From Tychonema litorale BBK16 (GTDB lineage: Bacteria > Cyanobacteriota > Cyanobacteriia > Cyanobacteriales > Microcoleaceae): a stretch of 64,000 bases of DNA. Below are positions 49,213-60,220 of this stretch, in pieces. The notes under the pieces were generated by a model. The model had not been told where the DNA came from. It did not search any database and saw nothing but the letters and a program-made list of their open reading frames with translations. Within the stretch, counting starts at the first letter, position 1, and each line of letters begins with the position of its first letter. Made by a program: the position numbers and the translations under genes. Where the stretch lies: contig NZ_JAKJHX010000012.1 of assembly GCF_021648855.1 (NCBI RefSeq), positions 1-64,000 on the forward strand. Direction: 5' to 3'.

Positions 49213-52188
49213 TTAATCATCTACCCCTTCAATCGGCGCAAAACCTTGACGCTGAATATTTTCAGTAATCGTGCGAGGTTCCAGGAATTGTAGCAAATAA
49301 TCGGGGCCGCCAGCCTTGGAACCAACTCCCGAAAGCTTGAATCCTCCGAAGGGTTGGCGGGATACGACAGCGCCTGTGGTGCCGCGATTGATGTACAGAT
49401 TTCCGACTTCAAAATCGGCTTTGGCGCGATCGATATGCGAAGGTGTGCGAGAATACAATCCACCAGTTAAGGCAAAATTTGTATCGTTAGCGATGTCAAT
49501 TGCTTCATTAAAATTCTTTGCCCGAATCACTGACAAAACCGGGCCAAAAATTTCTTCTTGGGCGAGAGTTGCTGTCGGTGATACTTCCGTGACAATGACG
49601 GGGCCGACAAAATAGCCAGTTTCCGGTGCCGACATTTCTAAAGCAATTTTAGCTTCGGCGCGACCCTTTTCAATGTATTCACGGATGCGGGATTGGGCGG
49701 TGATATCAATGACTGGGCCGACTTGAGTACCGGGATTTTCAGCGATACCAACATTGAGCGATCGCGTGGCTTCTACCAATCTTTCCACAAACACATCATA
49801 CACCGATTCGACGACAATTACTCGCGAACAAGCAGAACATTTTTGACCGCTATATCCAAATGCCGAATACACAACACCGGCCACAGCTTGGTCTAAATCT
49901 GAACTTTCATCGACGATAATCCCATTCTTGCCACCCATTTCGGCAATCACTCGTTTCAAGTGTTTTTGTCCTGGTTGTAAAATTGCAGCATCGGCGTAAA
50001 TTTTGCAACCAACTTCTTGAGAACCGGTGAAAGTAATCATGTGGACATCGGGATGTTTCACCATGTAAGCGCCCACAGTTGAACCTTTGCATGGCACGTA
50101 TTGAAATACGCCCTTGGGAATGCCTGCTGCAACCAGAATTTCTGTAATCTTAGCGGCAATTACTGAGGAAAATTCGGCAGGTTTGAGTAAGGTACAATTT
50201 CCAGCAACTAGGGATGCAACGGTCATACCCACTGGAATTGCTAGGGGGAAATTCCAAGGAGAAATAATTAAGGAAATGCCGCGCGGCTGATAGCTGTAGC
50301 GGTTGTTTTCGCCTGCTATGTCATAATTTTGTCCTTGTTCCAACCGTTCCATTTCATCGGCGTAGTAGCGACAAAAATCGATGGCTTCGGAAACTTCGGC
50401 ATCGCATTCTCTGACTGGTTTGCCAACTTCAAATACCATCCAAGCAGAAAGTTCGTGCCGTCTTTGTTCCATCAATTCTGCGGCTTTTCGTAATATGCCA
50501 GCCCGCTGTCTGACGGGGGTTTTCCGCCAACCGAGAGAGGCATCTTTGGCTGCTTGGAGGGCTTGTTTGGCTTGCTCTTCGGAAAGCAATCCGATTTTTC
50601 CGACTACTTCTGTCGGGTTGCAAGGATTGAGAGAATTGACGCTGGTTTCAGTGTTTTGATATTCACCGTTAATTAAGGGTAAATAGGTTTGTCCGAGGAT
50701 TCCCCGCACTGATTTGATCGCCGTTTCTGCTTGTTTGCGGAGTTCGGTATTGGCGTAGTCTGTATCGGGAACATTGGGAAATACTTTGGTGTAAACTAGC
50801 TGGTCATTGCCATTGGCGACTGGGGCGGCTAACAATTGCTCGATCGGCATTTCTTCGGAACTTTGCCGAATGAAGGAACTGTTGGCGGTATTTTCCAGCA
50901 ATCGGCGGATTAAATAGGCCATGCCTGGGAGCAAATCGCCGTAGGGACAGTAGACTCGGACGCGATAACCCCGATCGACCAAAAGCTTAGCAAATTTGTC
51001 GCCCATGCCGTACAACACTTGCATCTCAAAGCGGCGGCGTGGTATATTGAGACTTTCAGCAATGGCGATCGCTCTGGCTTGCGATCGGACGTTATGACTA
51101 GCAATTGCAGCATACAAATATTCGTGATTTTCCAGCAGCAACTGGGTCATTTCTTCAAAGTTGGCATCCGTAGCTGCTTTATCGTTGTAGACTGGCTGCG
51201 GCCAATCTTTCTGCATCGCTTTAATCGTTTCCTGATCCCAGTAAGCGCCTTTTACCAAACGCACCGTTAGCGGATTTCCACGCTTTTTTGCCCAGACAAT
51301 AATGTCTTGCAAATCTTGTTTGCTGTCGCGCAAATATGCTTGCATGGTAATACCGACATCCGTGCGATCGCGAAACTCATCCTCTAACAATAACTCTTTG
51401 AGAATACTGAGAGTTAAACTCTTATAGGCATACTGTTCCATGTCAAAGTGAACTGCCGCCCCCAACTCTGCGGCGCGACGCAGTAATAGGCGAATTTTGT
51501 CGCCTACCTTAACCTCGCTACCTTTAGGATCCAGCGGATCAAACTGAGAATAAAACGCCGTTAACTTGACGGATACTTGTACTCGTGGTAAAGTTTCATC
51601 ATCTGCTTTATCGATCGCATCTACCTGAGACCAATTTTTAGCAGCGATGCTCAATTCCTGCATTAGTTCCAAATAGCGATCGAGATAAACTTGTGCCTCA
51701 GTTTCAGTGATGACAGCCTCCCCCAAAAGGTCAACTGTAAAGCCCATTTTATCCTTGCGAAGTCGTTCTAAAGTTTTAACTACTTGCTTGATATTTTCCC
51801 CAGAAATATACTTATGCGCCAAAGTTTCCACCGCCGGCGCAACTGTTGTCGCAGCCAATTGTCCAGGAATCGAATCAGCGTTAGTAAAACTGAGCAATTT
51901 TTTCAAGGCTTCCGGCAATTCTACCTCTTCCACAGTCAGGTATTCTTGCAGGTGGCGGGCAATTTCCGGCTTGCTGCGGAGGGCCGGCAAACAGTCAATA
52001 AATCGAAACAATTGCACGCGCAATCCGGGGCTAGCCATCGCCCAATCCATTAGTTTATCATCCCAACGCATTTGATCTTGCAGTTGACCGAAAAAGGAGC
52101 GTTTTTTGTCTTGAGTGGCCTTAAGAATTTCTTTAGCAATTTCCTGAGTCTTTGCTTCGTAGATGCTTGGAGATACTTGTGCGATCAT
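49213..52188 (-). CDS. putA: Bifunctional proline dehydrogenase / 1-pyrroline-5-carboxylate dehydrogenase
   Basis: 991 aa. The N-terminal PRODH domain (about residues 100-460; LDRYLELMQELSIAAKNW, VSVKLTAFYSQFDPLDP, RLVKGAYWDQE, SHNVRSQARA) oxidises proline with FAD. The C-terminal ALDH domain (about 510-980; IISPWNFPLAIPVGM, TFTGSQEVG, EMGGKNGIIVDE, SGQKCSACSRV with the catalytic Cys, EEIFGPVLSV) oxidises glutamate semialdehyde to glutamate. There is no N-terminal DNA-binding RHH domain, so it is the non-regulatory PutA form. Cyanobacterial copies are often labelled pruA. A proline-catabolic transporter is not adjacent. Confidence 0.95.
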   Translation of the reverse strand: MIAQVSPSIYEAKTQEIAKEILKATQDKKRSFFGQLQDQMRWDDKLMDWAMASPGLRVQLFRFIDCLPALRSKPEIARHLQEYLTVEEVELPEALKKLLSFTNADSIPGQLAATTVAPAVETLAHKYISGENIKQVVKTLERLRKDKMGFTVDLLGEAVITETEAQVYLDRYLELMQELSIAAKNWSQVDAIDKADDETLPRVQVSVKLTAFYSQFDPLDPKGSEVKVGDKIRLLLRRAAELGAAVHFDMEQYAYKSLTLSILKELLLEDEFRDRTDVGITMQAYLRDSKQDLQDIIVWAKKRGNPLTVRLVKGAYWDQETIKAMQKDWPQPVYNDKAATDANFEEMTQLLLENHEYLYAAIASHNVRSQARAIAIAESLNIPRRRFEMQVLYGMGDKFAKLLVDRGYRVRVYCPYGDLLPGMAYLIRRLLENTANSSFIRQSSEEMPIEQLLAAPVANGNDQLVYTKVFPNVPDTDYANTELRKQAETAIKSVRGILGQTYLPLINGEYQNTETSVNSLNPCNPTEVVGKIGLLSEEQAKQALQAAKDASLGWRKTPVRQRAGILRKAAELMEQRRHELSAWMVFEVGKPVRECDAEVSEAIDFCRYYADEMERLEQGQNYDIAGENNRYSYQPRGISLIISPWNFPLAIPVGMTVASLVAGNCTLLKPAEFSSVIAAKITEILVAAGIPKGVFQYVPCKGSTVGAYMVKHPDVHMITFTGSQEVGCKIYADAAILQPGQKHLKRVIAEMGGKNGIIVDESSDLDQAVAGVVYSAFGYSGQKCSACSRVIVVESVYDVFVERLVEATRSLNVGIAENPGTQVGPVIDITAQSRIREYIEKGRAEAKIALEMSAPETGYFVGPVIVTEVSPTATLAQEEIFGPVLSVIRAKNFNEAIDIANDTNFALTGGLYSRTPSHIDRAKADFEVGNLYINRGTTGAVVSRQPFGGFKLSGVGSKAGGPDYLLQFLEPRTITENIQRQGFAPIEGVDD

Positions 52189-52235: not shown

Positions 52236-53327
52236 CTATTTTACTTCAATTTTAACTCCATAGTTGGCTTTATTGTCACCAGAAATTTCAATAGTATAGT
52301 CGCCGCTACTAGGAAGTTGACCTTGCCACGGAGTTGTACTATTCACAGTAGCAATTTTTTCGCCATTAGGAGCAATAATTGCAGCACTAACAGTGCCTTC
52401 TTGAACATTCAAAGTCATGCTTTGGCCACTATTGCATTCAAGTAAGTAGCGCTTGGATTTGTTATCTGGCAGAGTATTAGTGAGAGTAACTCCGATCGCA
52501 CCTGGTTCAAAAGTAACTCGTTCAGTAACAGCGGTTTCAGCAGCAGGGGAAGCAGCAGGAGAAGGAGATGGCGATGGTGATGGTGATGGTGATGCTAGTT
52601 GCGGCACTCCAGACAGGGATGGTATTTGTGTAGGATTGGGCGACGGTAGGCTGGCAGGTGGCTGGAGAGTGCCGGGGGCCGGGGGAATCGTGGGAAGTCG
52701 ATTAGCGGGCGGGATTGGAACAGGAGAAGGACTTTCGGGAAGTGGTACATCAGAGGGCAATTTGATTTGTAGATTAACTCTTTCCTGATACATTCTCCAC
52801 GCTACTAAAGTGCCGAGACTGAATACAGAACCAACTAGAATTCCACTAAAAAATACCGCTAAAATTCGCCAAACTCCTGTTTTATTCGGTTCGGGATTTA
52901 CTGTCTGATTTAGTTGAGTTGGGTGATTTTCATAATCAATAGTTGCTGGTGGAATTTCCGCTGCTATTGGAAAAGTTTCTGGTTCGCTTCTTGCAGCTAT
53001 AATATCTTCTCTGACGGCAATTTCAGTCGGAATCTCTGCTAGTTCAGAATTAGCAGTTAAAGTGTTTTCTGTGTGGGGGATTTCGGTAGAAGTTTCTGGC
53101 GAGATTTCTGGTGAAATTTCTATCATTGGTTCATCATATCTACTTGAAGAATGTTCACCTGTGGCAATTGACATCCAAGTTTCTATTGATTCTGAATAGG
53201 TAGTTAAAGTAGGTTCGGCTGGGGCAACTTCAGCCGGAATTTCTGCTGATTCGGAATCGGCATCGACACTGGCAATGGTTTCCGGTTGCTGAGTCAAAAT
53301 TTGATTATTTTCCGGTTGGTCACTCAT
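52236..53327 (-). CDS. Single-pass membrane protein with Pro-rich linker and PPC-like C-terminal domain
   Basis: 363 aa. An acidic cytoplasmic region of ~150 residues with repeated SE/EI/PA-rich phrases (SAEIPAEV, LAEIPTEI) precedes one membrane helix (about 152-178). A Pro/Ser linker with (SP)n runs follows, encoded by a GGTGAT-type microsatellite near 52560-52590. The last ~95 residues form a beta-sandwich like a pre-peptidase C-terminal (PPC) domain: SKRYLLECNSGQSMTLNV and SGDYTIEISGDNKANYGVKIEV. Its stop is 47 bases before the putA start, same strand, so cotranscription is possible. Confidence 0.7.
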   Translation of the reverse strand: MSDQPENNQILTQQPETIASVDADSESAEIPAEVAPAEPTLTTYSESIETWMSIATGEHSSSRYDEPMIEISPEISPETSTEIPHTENTLTANSELAEIPTEIAVREDIIAARSEPETFPIAAEIPPATIDYENHPTQLNQTVNPEPNKTGVWRILAVFFSGILVGSVFSLGTLVAWRMYQERVNLQIKLPSDVPLPESPSPVPIPPANRLPTIPPAPGTLQPPASLPSPNPTQIPSLSGVPQLASPSPSPSPSPSPAASPAAETAVTERVTFEPGAIGVTLTNTLPDNKSKRYLLECNSGQSMTLNVQEGTVSAAIIAPNGEKIATVNSTTPWQGQLPSSGDYTIEISGDNKANYGVKIEVK

Positions 53328-53453: not shown

Positions 53454-53912
53454 CTAAGAATAAGACAGTGGCGGTACATCGAAATCGTTAAACGATCGAA
53501 CATCATAAGATGTGTCTGCTAAAGCTCTGACTAGCTTTTGATCTAGAGTTAGCAAAGGCGCGCCAACTTGTTCGGAAAGAGCAACGTAACTGCCATCATA
53601 AGCAGAGATTCCATAATTTAAGGCGATATTTGTTGCATCTAAAATCAGTTCAGCAGTAGATACTGCACGCAAGGATAAACCTTTAAGATTAGCTAAATCT
53701 GTTGGGAGATCAGCAGCAGCATAAAGTCCAGCACGGACATACTTCCAGATAATATTTGCACACTCAATATAAAACAGATCCGGTACAAATATTTCTGTCT
53801 GTGGAATTTCAAGATAGGTAAATAATTGAACGACTTTAGATGACAGTGGATCGGGGATAAACTGCTTAATCGCCACGCTAGCATCGACTACGCACCTCAT
53901 AGGATTGGTCAT
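53454..53912 (-). CDS. vapC: VapC-type PIN-domain toxin
   Basis: 152 aa. PIN-domain acidic residues: Asp10 in CVVDASVAIKQF, Glu in FYIECANI, Asp in ISAYDGSYVAL and Asp in LLTLDQKLV. It is a predicted metal-dependent ribonuclease. ATG overlaps the antitoxin stop (ATGA), the usual vapBC layout. Confidence 0.88.
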   Translation of the reverse strand: MTNPMRCVVDASVAIKQFIPDPLSSKVVQLFTYLEIPQTEIFVPDLFYIECANIIWKYVRAGLYAAADLPTDLANLKGLSLRAVSTAELILDATNIALNYGISAYDGSYVALSEQVGAPLLTLDQKLVRALADTSYDVRSFNDFDVPPLSYS

Positions 53913-54178
53913 CTGTCGCGATCCTCTCTTATTAAAGTGGTACTATCTAATATCATTCCCATATTTGCGGGACGAGACTCGCGACGACGGCTGATTTCTG
54001 CCAATAATTCTCTTACAGACTTTTTATTTTGTCCTGAGAGGGGTTTTATCTTTGTTGACAACTCAGCTTCTAAAATGGCGATCGCAAATGCACTAACCGA
54101 GCGGTTTTGAGCATCGGCTAACTCTTGCAGCCTCGTATACAATTCCTCTGGTATATTTTCTATTTGCAGGGTAGCCAT
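53909..54178 (-). CDS. vapB: VapB/FitA-type ribbon-helix-helix antitoxin
   Basis: 89 aa. N-terminal RHH segment (ATLQIENIPEELYTRLQELADAQNRSVSAFAIAILEAEL) of the FitA-like type, which binds DNA; the C-terminal basic region (about residues 50-89) should wrap and inhibit the PIN toxin encoded just after. First gene of the pair. Confidence 0.85.
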   Translation of the reverse strand: MATLQIENIPEELYTRLQELADAQNRSVSAFAIAILEAELSTKIKPLSGQNKKSVRELLAEISRRRESRPANMGMILDSTTLIREDRDR

Positions 54179-54361: not shown

Positions 54362-56866
54362 CTAATTATTAGGCAAAGACTGCCAAAAAGGTCGTTCCTC
54401 TCCCTTCCTCACAGTATTTGTCGCCGACTGCACATTCCCCCTAAGTTCTTGATAATACCTATCGTCAAGGAAACTAATATTGACACCAAAAGGTAGCAGC
54501 AATTCGCGCAATCTTTCCTGAGTGTAATCCTTGCCACCAATCAGCGCCCCACGGGGATTAGAAACTAATAAATTGCCATTTACCGGCACGGAATTGACCA
54601 TGTTCGGCCACCAAGCATAACCGCTGTAGCCAAACATCGCTGGAACTTGAATGATTTGGTCATCTGTCAGTGAAAACTCTCTTTTCAACTTCTCAATAAT
54701 TGGATTAAGTTTCTGCTTTTGCAAATTGAGATTGTGTTGAATTAAAGCTGGATTTCTCAAAGCAGCGCTGACTGTGATTTCATTACTCAAACCGCGATTT
54801 ATCGTCACATCACCGTAACCTTTTCCTGCCAACTCCTCCAATAGCTTGACTCCGGCTTCTGGACTGGCGATCGCCATTATATACTTTCCGGGAGTTGTAC
54901 TGGGAATAAAATTGATAATTTCATCCACTTGGCGAGTCAATAGCCAAGAAGTATCAATATCCACTGGTTGGCCTTGAATTCTCTGGGCTTGAATGAAGTC
55001 CAGCACTTCTGGATTAAAACTAGCATTCCCCGGATTACCGTAATAAACTCGACCCATTGGGTATGCGGGAAGTGGCGGCGTTACTTGCAAATTTCCGTAG
55101 CCATCAGCCCACTGATTCGCCGATTCTTCGTTGCGAGGTTTGCCGATTTTAAATACGGTCAAATCCGGATCTGAATTTGATTTATCTGGGTTATTGCCTA
55201 GGGGATTACTATTGCTTTTGACAGCGACATTAAAATTGCGGAGTTTGAGTTTTTCGGGAAATTGAACGTAGCCGTTTTTCTGAGTATCTTGCATCCAAGC
55301 CCGATCGCCCTGGATGACTTTTACCAGAGCACCAGTGGGCTCTACCGCTTGTTTGAGTTGGGAGATGAATTCACTATTTGCCGAGCCTCTGTCGCTGACT
55401 TGCACCTCTGTAACTGGTGCGATATTGGATGGCATGATCCAAGGTGTAACTCCCAATTGGATGGTATTTGAGGCGATTTCTGTACCATTACTTATGGCAG
55501 TTGCTTTGAGATTGATGAGACCGTTCCAATTGCGATCGGCAAATTGTTTTGCTTCTACACCTAACACAATATCAGTGCTAAAAACTAGCTGTTTAGTACC
55601 AGATATATCCACAGCTTGCCAGCCGTCGCCTATCTTTTGAAAAACGCTAATGTGAGGTGCAGCTAGGCTATCAGCAGTGATAAATACTTGAGAATCTTTG
55701 AAATTCTCAGATAGTTTTAAATGAACTTGAGAAAGCATAGCTGGGCGGCGAGGAGCGCTAATTTTTGCTTCTTGCCAAACTGGTATTTTGCGCTGATCAC
55801 CTAATTTGTCATTAAATAGAACTAGCGGGCCACTAGACAAAGACCATTGTTGTTTACCAGGTTCGTCTTGCTGATTAATTTCGCCGTCTCTGTTGGTATC
55901 TCCAGCAAAAAAGAAGTCTGATGAAGATGTGGGCAATAAAAATGGGATTGAACTTGGTTTTGTAGTTGGTTGAATTGTTGGTTGATTGAGTTCTAGTGCT
56001 TGTCTCTCTAATTCTTTGCGGGCGAGTTCTTGTCTCTCTAATTCTTTGCGGGCGAGTTCTTGTTTTTCTCGTTCTGCATTCTCTAATTCTTGGCGGGCAA
56101 GTTCTTGTTTTTCTCGTTCTTTTCTGACAATCTCGTTTTTCTCAAACTCTTGTCTTTCTAACTCTTTACGAACAAGTTCTTGCTTTTCAAATTCTTGTCT
56201 TTCCAGTTCTTTGCGGGCTTGTTCTTTTTTCTCAAATGCTTGTCTTTCTAACTCTTTTTTCTGTTGTTCTTCTTCTAAAAATTTTTGTACATTTCGTGCA
56301 ACTTGCAGTTCATAGGTAGCGACTGTGAGATTGCCTTGATATTCGATGGTTTTGTCGATCGCACCACTAGCCAAAAAAGAACCATGGGGAATTTGGCGGA
56401 GTGTGTTGATAGCGGACTGCCACAGGCGTTTTGACTGTTCCCAACTAGCTGGAGAACTTTTTGCGGTGCGTCCGATTACGACAGCTTCACGAGCTATTTT
56501 AGCTGAGTCATTCCAAGTATTTTTGGCTGTTTCTTCGATTTGAATGCGACTTTTGAGATTTTCGAGTTGCTGTACGATATTTTCTGATTTTTGGCGCTGG
56601 GTTTGGGGCTTCCAGGGTTCTAAGAAAAATGAGGTATTGTCGGGAGTTTTGGCAAGTTGGTCTAATTCTAGTTTAAGGCGATCGCGCAATTTGTAGAGTT
56701 CGGGGAGGGATTGCGGAGATTCGCCGTCTAGCTGTCGCGCAGAGATGGCGAGTTGGTAGTTGAGGGAAGGTTGGGCCAGCGTTTGGGGGACTGCTACCCA
56801 GATGATACCGATGACGACACCGAAAGTATTGACAATCGCGATCGCAATATATTTAACCAAGCGCAT
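54362..56866 (-). CDS. Secreted protein-arginine-deiminase homologue, predicted inactive
   Basis: 834 aa. Signal peptide or anchor at residues 1-31 (cleavage after TLAQ). Residues about 195-293 are a highly charged coiled coil of KELERQ/KQELAR units. A PAD_M-like domain (about 315-465) includes an intact calcium-type loop DTNRDGEINQQDE. The PAD_C domain (about 470-830) starts VTPWIMPSNIAPVTEVQV and keeps WMQD with Asp527 and VDE with Asp648. The catalytic His before VDE is Gln646 (LTRQVDE instead of GHVDE). The catalytic Cys of the final HCGTN loop is Ser814 (VQSATN). Substrate-binding Arg of the SPRNRG loop are not seen. Active cyanobacterial deiminases are known and have been proposed as the source of animal PADI genes; this copy looks like a secreted pseudoenzyme. 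Confidence 0.85.
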   Translation of the reverse strand: MRLVKYIAIAIVNTFGVVIGIIWVAVPQTLAQPSLNYQLAISARQLDGESPQSLPELYKLRDRLKLELDQLAKTPDNTSFFLEPWKPQTQRQKSENIVQQLENLKSRIQIEETAKNTWNDSAKIAREAVVIGRTAKSSPASWEQSKRLWQSAINTLRQIPHGSFLASGAIDKTIEYQGNLTVATYELQVARNVQKFLEEEQQKKELERQAFEKKEQARKELERQEFEKQELVRKELERQEFEKNEIVRKEREKQELARQELENAEREKQELARKELERQELARKELERQALELNQPTIQPTTKPSSIPFLLPTSSSDFFFAGDTNRDGEINQQDEPGKQQWSLSSGPLVLFNDKLGDQRKIPVWQEAKISAPRRPAMLSQVHLKLSENFKDSQVFITADSLAAPHISVFQKIGDGWQAVDISGTKQLVFSTDIVLGVEAKQFADRNWNGLINLKATAISNGTEIASNTIQLGVTPWIMPSNIAPVTEVQVSDRGSANSEFISQLKQAVEPTGALVKVIQGDRAWMQDTQKNGYVQFPEKLKLRNFNVAVKSNSNPLGNNPDKSNSDPDLTVFKIGKPRNEESANQWADGYGNLQVTPPLPAYPMGRVYYGNPGNASFNPEVLDFIQAQRIQGQPVDIDTSWLLTRQVDEIINFIPSTTPGKYIMAIASPEAGVKLLEELAGKGYGDVTINRGLSNEITVSAALRNPALIQHNLNLQKQKLNPIIEKLKREFSLTDDQIIQVPAMFGYSGYAWWPNMVNSVPVNGNLLVSNPRGALIGGKDYTQERLRELLLPFGVNISFLDDRYYQELRGNVQSATNTVRKGEERPFWQSLPNN

Positions 56867-57069: not shown

Positions 57070-57411
57070 TCACCTCGGTGGACGTATTACCCTAATCAAT
57101 TTGCCTGTCAATGTTTCGACCGCAGAAATAGCTTCATTAATCAGTGTAGCTTGTCTCTCTGTATTCAAATCTTCTTTGCAAATAATGATACCGTTATGGT
57201 CTGGTTGCAAACGATGCAGGTGTCTAAAATCATCCCAATTGCGCGTCAAAACGGCTCGATTGTGGCTAATAGCAAAAGCTAACACATCTTCATCAGGAAT
57301 CCCCAGTCCACCATTTCCAGCTTCTTGCACTGTCAAAACATCGTGACCAAAAGTTCGCAGTAATTCCACGATAACCAGTGGAAAATTTTCATCTGCATAA
57401 AGACGCACCAT
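57070..57411 (-). CDS. DUF5615 PIN-like toxin (copy A)
   Basis: 113 aa. The DUF5615/Mut7-C-like PIN fold shows acidic residues in LYADENFP, IPDEDVL and NWDDF. These proteins pair with DUF433 antitoxin-like proteins and are predicted toxins. ATG 57411 follows the DUF433 stop with zero spacing (TAAATG). About 70% identical to copy B at 57920 by eye, which indicates a segmental duplication. Confidence 0.8.
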   Translation of the reverse strand: MVRLYADENFPLVIVELLRTFGHDVLTVQEAGNGGLGIPDEDVLAFAISHNRAVLTRNWDDFRHLHRLQPDHNGIIICKEDLNTERQATLINEAISAVETLTGKLIRVIRPPR

Positions 57412-57741
57412 TTATTGATCTTCCTCATTTCTAGCGATTGCTGCTTCAATTTCCTCTGGGTGTGCCTCAGCATAAGCCCAAGCATTCGCCAAATCCGCTG
57501 CACTCAAATGAGGAAAGTCTTGCAAAATCCGCACATCATTTGCACCCAGAAGGCGATAATTTACCATCGACCAAATGGGTATGCGAGTGTTGGCAATTCT
57601 AGCATCGCCGCCGCACACGCCAGGAGTTTTTTCGATTCCTTGCCAAGTATTGCTTAAACTTTGGACTAATAGCTGTATTGCTTGAGTTTTTTCACTAGGA
57701 GTTAAGGCAAGGAGTTGTTTTTCTAATTCTTTCAGTGCCAT
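57412..57741 (-). CDS. DUF433 antitoxin-like protein (copy A)
   Basis: 109 aa. DUF433 core: TPGVCGGDARIANTRIPIWSMVNYRLLG, then FPHLSAADLANAWAYAEAHPEEIE. The conserved RIPIW segment resembles a winged-helix DNA-binding region. First gene of the DUF433-DUF5615 pair. Confidence 0.82.
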   Translation of the reverse strand: MALKELEKQLLALTPSEKTQAIQLLVQSLSNTWQGIEKTPGVCGGDARIANTRIPIWSMVNYRLLGANDVRILQDFPHLSAADLANAWAYAEAHPEEIEAAIARNEEDQ

Positions 57742-57752
57742 TTTTTACAATC

Positions 57753-57900
57753 TCAATCATTTTTTATAATTGTTTGTTCAATTTCGTCTGGGGAAGCATT
57801 GTCATCAGCCCAGGCATCTATCAAGTGAGTGGCGGTGCGATCGGGGAATGATTCTAGGATTATAGCATCGGAAGCACCTAAACGGTGACGGCATCCCGCC
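57753..57900 (-). pseudogene. Third DUF433 fragment (C-terminal half)
   Basis: The minus strand reads GCRHRLGASDAIILESFP, then AWADDNASPDEIEQTII and a TGA at 57753-57755. This lines up with the C-terminal half of both neighbouring DUF433 genes (YRRLGCSDAELFKCYP; AWAYADAYPEEIEQAI). The N-terminal half and a start codon are missing; a GGGGGGC-rich stretch marks the break. It lies between DUF5615 copy B and DUF433 copy A. Confidence 0.75.
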
Positions 57901-57919
57901 CCCCAAGCTACGGCTTTTT

Positions 57920-58261
57920 TTACCTTGAAGGACGGTTAACTCGAATCAATTTACCGCTCAACGATTCTTCAGCAGAAATAGCATCATTAATTCGGATCGC
58001 CTGTCTTTCCCAGTTGCTATCTTGAGTACAAATAATAATACCAGCATGGTCTGGTTGTGAGCGATGCAGTCGAATAAAATCCCCTCGATTGAGAGTCAAA
58101 ACTGCTCGCTCATTACTCACTGCAAAAGCCAATACATCCTCATCAGGAATTCCTAATCCTGCGTTTCCGGCTTCTTGAACTGTTAAAACATCGTGACCTA
58201 AAGGTCGAAGAAACTCAACTACTGGCAACGGATACTGTTCGTCTGCATAAAGTCGCGCCAT
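57920..58261 (-). CDS. DUF5615 PIN-like toxin (copy B)
   Basis: 113 aa, same length and layout as copy A: LYADEQYP, IPDEDVLAFAVS, LNRGDF. The first Asp of the last site is Gly (copy A: WDD), the other acidic positions remain. ATG 58261 follows the DUF433 stop by 3 bases. Confidence 0.8.
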   Translation of the reverse strand: MARLYADEQYPLPVVEFLRPLGHDVLTVQEAGNAGLGIPDEDVLAFAVSNERAVLTLNRGDFIRLHRSQPDHAGIIICTQDSNWERQAIRINDAISAEESLSGKLIRVNRPSR

Positions 58262-58264
58262 GTT

Positions 58265-58591
58265 TTAGGCTTCCTCATTTTCTTTGATTGCTTGTTCAAT
58301 TTCTTCTGGGTAAGCATCAGCATAAGCCCAAGCATTGACTAAATCAGCCGCAGTCAAATGGGGATAGCACTTAAAAAGTTCCGCATCGCTGCATCCGAGA
58401 CGGCGATAACCCACAAGTACCCAAACTTGTATGCGAGTATTGCCAACACAAGCATCACCGCCACACACGCCGGGAGTCTTTTTAATGCCTATAGCACCAG
58501 TGCTTAAGGTTTGAAGTAAAATTTCTATAGCCGCTGCTTTGTCGGCTGAATTTAAGGATGCTAGATCGATTTTTAATTCGGTGAGTGTCAT
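58265..58591 (-). CDS. DUF433 antitoxin-like protein (copy B)
   Basis: 108 aa with the core TPGVCGGDACVGNTRIQVWVLVGYRRLG and FxxYPHLTAADLVNAWAYADAYPEEIEQAI. First gene of the second pair. Upstream lies a copy of palindromic element P. Confidence 0.82.
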   Translation of the reverse strand: MTLTELKIDLASLNSADKAAAIEILLQTLSTGAIGIKKTPGVCGGDACVGNTRIQVWVLVGYRRLGCSDAELFKCYPHLTAADLVNAWAYADAYPEEIEQAIKENEEA

Positions 58592-58915: not shown

Positions 58916-60220
58916 ATGAAATCCCGCTCTTGCTGGCTAATTTTTACCCTCATCGGACTGTCCTTAACAAGCTGCGGACAGCAGAAGTCATCTCAAGAAA
59001 TTGCCGAAACAGTTAAAAATAGTATCGTCTTGATTTCCTACCAGAATGAAGGCGGACACGGTACGGGCTTTATTGTGCCGGGGGAAACGGGTGTTTGCAC
59101 GGTTCTCACGGCACGTCATGTGGTTGAAGGGCGTAGCTTGAACCTGCTAACTAACGACCAAAAACTTTATCAAACTGACAGCATCCAAACAAGTTCCAAT
59201 TTGGATTTAGCGGTAGTAACGTTTCCGTCAGCCGGGGATAAATGTTCTTATCCAAGTCTCAATTTTGGGGATTCCGATAGTGTGAAACAAACAGACCAAA
59301 TCTACATTTCTGGGTTTCCAGACAGGGCTGGTGGTGGCAAATTAGTGAGACAATTTGTGCGTGGTTATGTATCGGAGTTGAATGTGTTGGATCAGGGTTA
59401 TGGAATTTCCTATGATGCTAATACTTTTAGCGGGATGAGTGGCGGGCCTGTTTTAGATACTAGCGGGAAAGTCGTTGCTGTTCATGGGAAGACAGACGCT
59501 CAAATTATTGCGGATTTGCAGAGTCAGCAAGCAAGTTTGTCTGATCAACAGAAAGCCACGCTGCAACAAGCGGCAGCAAGAGTTGCTGGAGGGGTACAAA
59601 TTAACACTTTTAAGTGGGGAATTCCGATTAAAAATTATCTAGTAAATCAGTCTAATTTGGTAAGTCAACCCATTGTGGCAAAGCCACCTGATGCAGGAAA
59701 TAAATCTATTGTGACAAAGTTACCTGATTCGGGAGAGCCACCCATTACTAAAGCAGACTATAGTAAGCTAAGCAAGTTATTGGAGGATGGAAAGTGGAAA
59801 GAAGCAGATGAGGAAACTGGCAACAAAATGTTAGAAGTGGCAGGTAAACAAAAAGAACGTTACTTAACAACAGAAGATATCGAAAATTTTTCGTGTCCTG
59901 ATTTACTAGCGATTGATAAACTTTGGGTAAAATATAGTGATGGACGCTTTGGCTTTTCTGTACAAAAACGAATTTATAAAAGTCTTGGTGGCGCTAAAGA
60001 GTATGATCAAAAAATTTGGTCAAACTTTGGTGAAGCAATTGGCTGGAAAAAGAAAGAAGGAGATTGGCTTCGGGACGATCTCCTTACTTGGAATAAGGAT
60101 CAACCAGAGGCTTATCTTCCAATGAGTACCAATGTAGCTAGTAATTTGAATGACGGTGATAATACTCTTCGTCACCGTGGGGGGATATTTTTCTCACACG
60201 CAGAGACTTGTAAATTGTAA
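58916..60220 (+). CDS. Lipoprotein serine protease fused to a GUN4 domain
   Basis: 434 aa. Lipobox LTSC with Cys20. Residues about 25-240 are a trypsin-like (S1C) protease with an intact triad: His68 in TARHVVEG, Asp97 in NLDLAVV, Ser175 in GMSGGPVL. A linker rich in Pro/Lys with a repeated PxxGxK phrase (about 250-275) leads to a GUN4-like domain (about 278-434): DYSKLSKLLEDGKWKEADEET, FSCPDLLAIDKLWVKYSDGRFGFSVQ and the porphyrin-pocket-type WxxFGEAIGWKK. GUN4 proteins bind Mg-porphyrins, but domain copies in lipoproteins are probably sensors of something else. A COP23 gene lies convergent downstream. Confidence 0.85.
   Translation: MKSRSCWLIFTLIGLSLTSCGQQKSSQEIAETVKNSIVLISYQNEGGHGTGFIVPGETGVCTVLTARHVVEGRSLNLLTNDQKLYQTDSIQTSSNLDLAVVTFPSAGDKCSYPSLNFGDSDSVKQTDQIYISGFPDRAGGGKLVRQFVRGYVSELNVLDQGYGISYDANTFSGMSGGPVLDTSGKVVAVHGKTDAQIIADLQSQQASLSDQQKATLQQAAARVAGGVQINTFKWGIPIKNYLVNQSNLVSQPIVAKPPDAGNKSIVTKLPDSGEPPITKADYSKLSKLLEDGKWKEADEETGNKMLEVAGKQKERYLTTEDIENFSCPDLLAIDKLWVKYSDGRFGFSVQKRIYKSLGGAKEYDQKIWSNFGEAIGWKKKEGDWLRDDLLTWNKDQPEAYLPMSTNVASNLNDGDNTLRHRGGIFFSHAETCKL

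Follow-up and report, generated by a model that had tools for sequence, protein, structure and literature searches.

A probable pseudo-deiminase conserved in a family of filamentous cyanobacteria

What does a protein-arginine deiminase (PAD) do once the residues of its chemistry have gone? The question is raised by a gene of Tychonema litorale BBK16, within the stretch of 64,000 nucleotides analysed here (the window), whose product a preliminary description had presented as a secreted PAD homologue with both key catalytic residues replaced. Below we set out the reading that it is a pseudo-deiminase of long standing which is probably exported and serves in binding or as a scaffold; to this reading we assign a probability of about 0.8. 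That the window protein is not a deiminase is, as far as its sequence can tell, very nearly certain, and a selected non-catalytic role is likely; scaffolding or protein binding, as opposed to binding of a small ligand, is an even bet.

Domain layout and the former active site

The Pfam PAD match covers residues 464–828 of the 834-residue protein with an e-value of 1e-55, and this significant PAD_C match, along with the fold, places the protein in the PAD superfamily (the PF03068 fold family). PAD_M by itself scored 14.3 bits, below the Pfam cut-off of 24.8, and PAD_N was absent from the Pfam hits up to E 1. The PAD_M/PAD_C arrangement proposed earlier is borne out by a profile built from the window protein and 49 relatives, which reached PADI4 (E 4e-76) in a match spanning both domains, and by a Foldseek search of solved structures, in which all 50 matches listed were to PADI1–4 (TM 0.71–0.78 with respect to the query). 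Searches with phmmer against solved structures recovered PADI2 (E 2e-43) and, more weakly, PADI6 (E 2e-19). Five AlphaFold2 models computed on the alignment of the window protein and its 49 relatives had mean pLDDT values of 70.2–81.6, the best of them (81.6) with a pTM of 0.78. Confidence was low in residues 338–362, the second acidic part of PAD_M, and 554–568, the former Arg loop (pLDDT below 50). Among the catalytic blocks, those of Gln646 and Ser814 averaged 89 and 83, and that of Asp527 averaged 54, so the geometry of the pocket in the model is not secured.

Table 1. Coordinates of the predicted gene and its features in the window
Feature	Residues	Position	Strand	Basis
Predicted pseudo-deiminase gene, 834 aa		54362..56866	minus	ORF without internal stop, PAD homology
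Signal-peptide-like N-terminus (charged start, hydrophobic core, TLA-Q)	1-31	56774..56866	minus	by eye, window protein and relatives
N-domain, with related segments in other own-genome proteins	53-194	56285..56710	minus	sequence searches
Charged linker, 5-residue (15-nt) repeats	196-290	55997..56281	minus	periodicity and length comparison
PAD_M domain	320-456	55499..55909	minus	sub-threshold Pfam, PADI4 profile alignment, model, Foldseek
EF-hand-like loop in PAD_M (D323, N325, D327, D334)	323-334	55865..55900	minus	alignment
PAD_C domain	464-828	54383..55477	minus	Pfam, PADI4 profile alignment, Foldseek
Asp527 (PADI4 D350), kept	527	55286..55288	minus	alignment
Former substrate-Arg loop, R372 equivalent Ser	550-568	55163..55219	minus	alignment, model
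Gln646 instead of catalytic His (PADI4 H471)	646	54929..54931	minus	alignment
Asp648 (PADI4 D473), kept	648	54923..54925	minus	alignment
Ser814 instead of nucleophile Cys (PADI4 C645)	814	54425..54427	minus	alignment

Residue equivalences were taken from the alignment of the above profile with PADI4. The pairs D527/D350, Q646/H471, D648/D473 and S814/C645 agree with the preliminary description, which had proposed both Asp to be kept and Gln and Ser to stand for the His and the Cys; in addition, H644 of PADI4 is replaced by Gln813. Of these residues, D350 and C645 are named for PADI4 in PMC11402830, and H471 and D473 for PAD2 in PMC11067741. Thus, of the four residues of an active deiminase the window protein has the two Asp and lacks the Cys and the His. 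Its chain contains no Cys at all, which rules out a relocated nucleophile cysteine, and its four His (161, 382, 405, 711) lie at neither catalytic His position. A lone Cys occurs in 16 other family members, situated in the signal region or the N-domain or, in 5 sequences, at query position 759, and never at the former nucleophile site in sequence. An error of sequencing at the catalytic codons has a negligible probability and is ruled out as a candidate, since Gln646, Gln813 and Ser814 are common to all 26 sequences of the window's genus; the same set has Asp648 in 26 and Asp527 in 23. The substrate Arg loop, which had been described as missing, indeed has Ser at the R372 position, where Arg is found in 2/26 genus sequences, the alignment of this loop being gapped. 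The same gapped region has no Arg at the R374 position in the intact divergent relatives listed (15 of 21 sequences), so the loss of R374 looks older.

Distribution and pattern of loss across the family

A PAD match was found in 57 of the 61 genomes of the window's family, and in 50 of the 52 with completeness of 90% or more and contamination of 5% or less; the four without a match are 87, 96, 55 and 92% complete. Sampled genomes of the order gave 104/388 and those of the phylum 24/386. The relatives include Microcoleus/Tychonema (the nearest, with up to 95% identity), Planktothrix, Okeania, Trichodesmium/Hydrocoleum, Kamptonema, Arthrospira and Lyngbya aestuarii, and a search of plasmids gave four Streptomyces/Embleya matches at 22–25% identity. 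The window's own genome has one PAD_C match and every positive family genome one PAD match, with the sole exception of G429, where it lies in two adjoining pieces. This bears on the possibility that the protein regulates an active deiminase within the cell that makes it, as is described for PADI6 and PADI1 in a review passage on PAD6 (PMC12732937). With one PAD match per genome, an own genome in which PF04371 gave no match, and hence no active partner found in searches of the own genome for both types and of the family genomes for PAD, we consider such regulation extremely improbable.

We compared 107 proteins, comprising 57 from the family, 23 of the nearest divergent groups (f9, f20, f5 and f46), 4 long ones of group f14 and 23 of PADI type. 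Site counts refer to 55 family sequences, excluding one with a diverged tail (L031) and a frameshifted piece (L128). The latter, with Ala at the Cys position, belongs to an Arthrospira gene copy that lies in two frames (L128, also L215). Four PAD proteins (L144, L145, L146 and L147) are long (994–1061 aa) and very divergent and have D-H-D-C; a gene of PADI type is present as well in two of the four genomes concerned.

A survey of orthologues for loss of Cys and His had been proposed at the outset. Not one of the 55 family sequences has Cys at the nucleophile position, which is occupied by Ser in 38, Asp in 13, Thr in 2 and Met and Ala in one each; the His is kept in 25/55, the first Asp in 38/55 and the second in 54/55. 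Among the 23 nearest sequences outside the family Cys is present in 22 and replaced by Ser in one (L130), and Cys is found in 4/4 long f14 sequences and in every PADI-type sequence with a readable site (22/23). In a tree of 78 of the 107 sequences (41 of the 57 family members), from which five trait columns were left out, the family forms one clade (support 99/97) with f20 as its sister (90/94). The clade was recovered with 100/98 in both rebuilt trees, the first without the flagged long branches and the second also without the PADI outgroup, with the same numbers of changes. The fewest changes on the tree are two for presence of the Cys, seven for the residue at its position, two for the His and four for the first Asp. 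Given a single clade without Cys amidst relatives of which 22/23 have it, the nucleophile was lost once on the stem of the family, and once in another lineage. The His and the first Asp were eroded later than the Cys, repeatedly. Outside the family, L130 (= L200) shows an independent change of Cys to Ser, and its E353 and E411 positions are occupied by Lys and Gln, as in the window's genus.

Selection was gauged by a pairwise counting method on PAD_C, using pairs with dS of 0.1–1.2. Over these non-independent pairs the median dN/dS comes to 0.182 for the window's genus (318 pairs), 0.083 for Planktothrix (44) and 0.111 for the Okeania/Trichodesmium type (65), as against 0.099 (6 pairs) and 0.138 (20) in the intact groups, the intact f20 sample being small, and 0.123 (26) in the PADI type; the value in the window's genus is thus higher than in the other groups. 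In 28 of the 67 PAD_C columns that show no variation in the intact group, fewer than 90% of the 55 family sequences keep the residue; these columns include 526, 527, 530, 553, 646, 813 and 814. Variable catalytic columns together with low dN/dS show that the pocket relaxed while the domain remained constrained, and PAD_C stayed under purifying selection in the family. The preliminary description had left the choice between a conserved and a recent pseudo-deiminase; conservation is upheld by the 57/61 genomes and the low dN/dS, and recency is contradicted by the family-wide loss of the Cys. A recent pseudogene is likewise ruled out by the residues shared by 26/26 genus sequences and by dN/dS. 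The idea of a gene decaying on its way to loss could draw on the copy in two frames, the diverged tail of L031 and the four family genomes without a match; however, no stop lies inside any family match listed (that of G429 being in two pieces) and dN/dS is well below 1, which makes decay very improbable. By its sequence, the protein would answer to the description of a pseudoenzyme, as an enzyme homologue that has lost its catalytic residues and is kept by selection.

The losses are graded among genera, and it is here that two other functional readings find their evidence. All 13 sequences of the Okeania/Trichodesmium type (for example L034, L032 and L153) have Asp at the nucleophile position and retain the equivalents of D350, H471, D473, H644, Q349, E411 and R372 (13/13 each) and of E353 (12/13), which points to a pocket more tuned than a plain scaffold would call for, possibly an arginine or metal site. 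One could accordingly imagine a re-purposed enzyme whose pocket has taken up a different reaction, carried by Ser814, say, or by the Asp of these sequences among D-H-D-H. Yet the window's genus is devoid of His471, His644, E353 and E411 (26/26) and has lost R372 in 24/26 sequences, and five different residues stand for the Cys within one family, so that we regard this as unlikely. The positions of Asp527 and Asp648 are those of the two Asp that bind the guanidine group. As both are kept in the window protein, and Asp648 in 54/55 and Asp527 in 38/55 of the family, the dead pocket could instead serve as a receptor for arginine or peptidyl-arginine, best so in the Okeania/Trichodesmium type. This is a minority possibility, given that Asp527 is replaced by Gly in 10/10 Planktothrix sequences and that R372 has gone from most of the genus.

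Calcium ligands, charged linker and N-terminal region

We take the Ca1 ligands to be Q349, E353 and E411 and the Ca2 ligands to be E351, D369, S370 and N373 (PADI4 numbering). In the window protein E351 is changed to T, E353 to K, E411 to Q and D369 to K, with the Q349 and S370 positions kept. Throughout the 26 genus sequences E353 is Lys, E411 is Gln and Q349 is retained (26/26 each), and E351 is never Glu and D369 never Asp. The E351 position is already Thr in 21/21 intact divergent sequences; this change thus predates the loss of the Cys, and a change in Ca2 alone is no mark of a dead enzyme. Nevertheless, the calcium ligands of the catalytic domain appear, on this alignment, to be mostly lost in the window protein. 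Calcium dependence, as suggested in the preliminary description, fits the EF-hand-like loop of PAD_M, whose D323, N325, D327 and D334 are kept in 54/54 family sequences having it, but not the changes at E353/E411 (Ca1) and E351/D369 (Ca2) in all 26 genus sequences. The next acidic positions after this loop (354 and 355) are lost in the genus.

The segment between the N-domain and PAD_M had been described as a charged coiled coil. It is charged, but its periodicity, computed for the window protein, has a power of 17.9 at period 5.0 against 0.6 at 3.5. The absence of a heptad signal and the 5-residue repeat speak against a canonical coiled coil at about 196–290, and the segment reads rather as an expandable charged spacer. 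Its length is 113–197 residues in 26 of 27 genus sequences, the remaining one (82 residues, L015) being from a gene that starts at a contig end, and 24–41 residues in other family members, two fragments aside. The long charged linker is thus specific to the window's genus and was expanded there.

Export had been proposed, and the signal-peptide-like start, read by eye, agrees with it. The N-domain that follows is probably helical. Among 20 sequences tested it was present in 10/10 from the family, 2/5 of f9 and 1/1 of f5, and was not found in three of f20 (including L130), the three other f9 sequences and that of f46. The window's own genome has eight further N-domain matches. One, in the beta-lactamase-like L218, spans the whole domain; the others are partial or weak and include a Ser/Thr kinase (L224, E 5e-5) and a DUF1574 protein (L223). 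Several of these proteins have a signal-like or membrane segment, as judged by eye.

No neighbour is common to all 58 loci, a set that includes loci truncated by the end of a contig, and on this count an operon partner is not supported. The cluster of the downstream gene for a 363-aa protein occurs in 22/58 loci and PutA in 16/58. In many loci of the genus these two, the former without a Pfam match (52236-53327, minus) and the latter at 49213-52188 (minus), are found downstream. A portion of the 363-aa protein is similar to a portion of a kinase encoded downstream of four f20 PAD genes (30–37% identity), three of them intact and one (L200, = L130) Cys-less; we treat this similarity as a lead only. 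Toxin-antitoxin-like pairs flank the gene on the minus strand, with PIN and a FitA-like RHH at 53454-54178 and, on the other side (57070-58591), DUF5615 and DUF433 as the nearer pair and a look-alike second pair beyond (57920-58591). A trypsin-like peptidase fused to GUN4 lies at 58916-60220 (plus).

Relation to known deiminases and the preferred reading

Mammalian PADI6 is an inactive PAD which, according to PMC11067741 and PMC11402830, has Ala676 at the position of C645, binds no calcium and has lost many calcium ligands, and for which a non-enzymatic role in oocyte cytoplasmic lattices is proposed. The window protein, which matches it in sequence, is similar in having a PAD fold without nucleophile and with calcium ligands lost. 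However, PADI6 as described there keeps both Asp and the His and has cysteines near the site, whereas the window protein lacks the catalytic His and any Cys and is therefore further eroded. It also differs from a cytoplasmic-lattice protein, as PADI6 is there portrayed, by its signal-peptide-like start and N-domain. The two losses of Cys were probably independent; the nearest sequences in the tree, which held no PADI6, are cyanobacterial.

The three-domain cyanobacterial PADI (cyanoPADI) is active and calcium-dependent (PMC8826395), and its PAD_M and PAD_C are homologous to those of the window protein. In contrast to the latter, PADI-type sequences keep D-H-D-C wherever the site is readable, and the window protein, without a PAD_N Pfam hit, belongs to a divergent group across a branch with 100/99 support. 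The nearest relatives are the intact divergent cyanobacterial PADs (f9, f20, f5 and f46), with Thr at E351, H-[VI]-D and mostly HCATN, several of which have signal-like N-termini (by eye) as does the window protein; unlike the family they keep the Cys in 22/23 sequences. Among open-licence papers, searched mostly by title, we found none on their activity. PPAD is exported in P. gingivalis. The PPAD type (PF04371) shares with the window protein the likeness of a pentein-fold deiminase, but is treated as a phyletically distinct type in PMC8826395, and was not found in the own genome.

Behind the long-standing pseudo-deiminase that we prefer, the sequences show loss of the nucleophile Cys on the family stem, followed by erosion of the His, the first Asp, the Arg loop and the Ca1 ligands to different degrees among genera, with the remainder of the domain conserved meanwhile. 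The protein would be at work beyond the cytoplasm, binding other molecules or providing a scaffold by means of the PAD fold, the EF-hand-like calcium loop of PAD_M and the N-terminal domain, with the genus-specific charged spacer between. Several points run counter to it, namely the want of a neighbour common to all loci, the raised dN/dS in the genus, the tuned look of the pocket in the Okeania/Trichodesmium type, the four family genomes without a match, the Arthrospira copy in two frames and the poorly modelled Asp527 block. A bolder version, which we offer as speculation that is more probably wrong than right, is that an exported citrullinating enzyme became a calcium-linked arginine reader, holding the Arg side chains of outside proteins or peptides without modifying them. 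The nucleophile would have gone first with the guanidinium-binding Asp kept, the Asp of the Okeania/Trichodesmium type would add a third acid, and in the Microcoleus branch the shell would then have become a scaffold, carried by a charged spacer of variable length.

We found no bacterial pseudo-deiminase described in the open-licence papers, searched mostly by title; PMC8826395 also assessed its hits for catalytic residues, and dead members may thus have been set aside. Citrullination should not be read from a PAD annotation in these genomes. In a bacterial clade with Microcoleus, Planktothrix, Trichodesmium, Okeania, Arthrospira and Lyngbya among its relatives, catalytic residues have gone and the protein has been kept. 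This clade provides a second case beside PADI6, one with graded intermediates, and it raises the question of what the PAD fold does without its chemistry.
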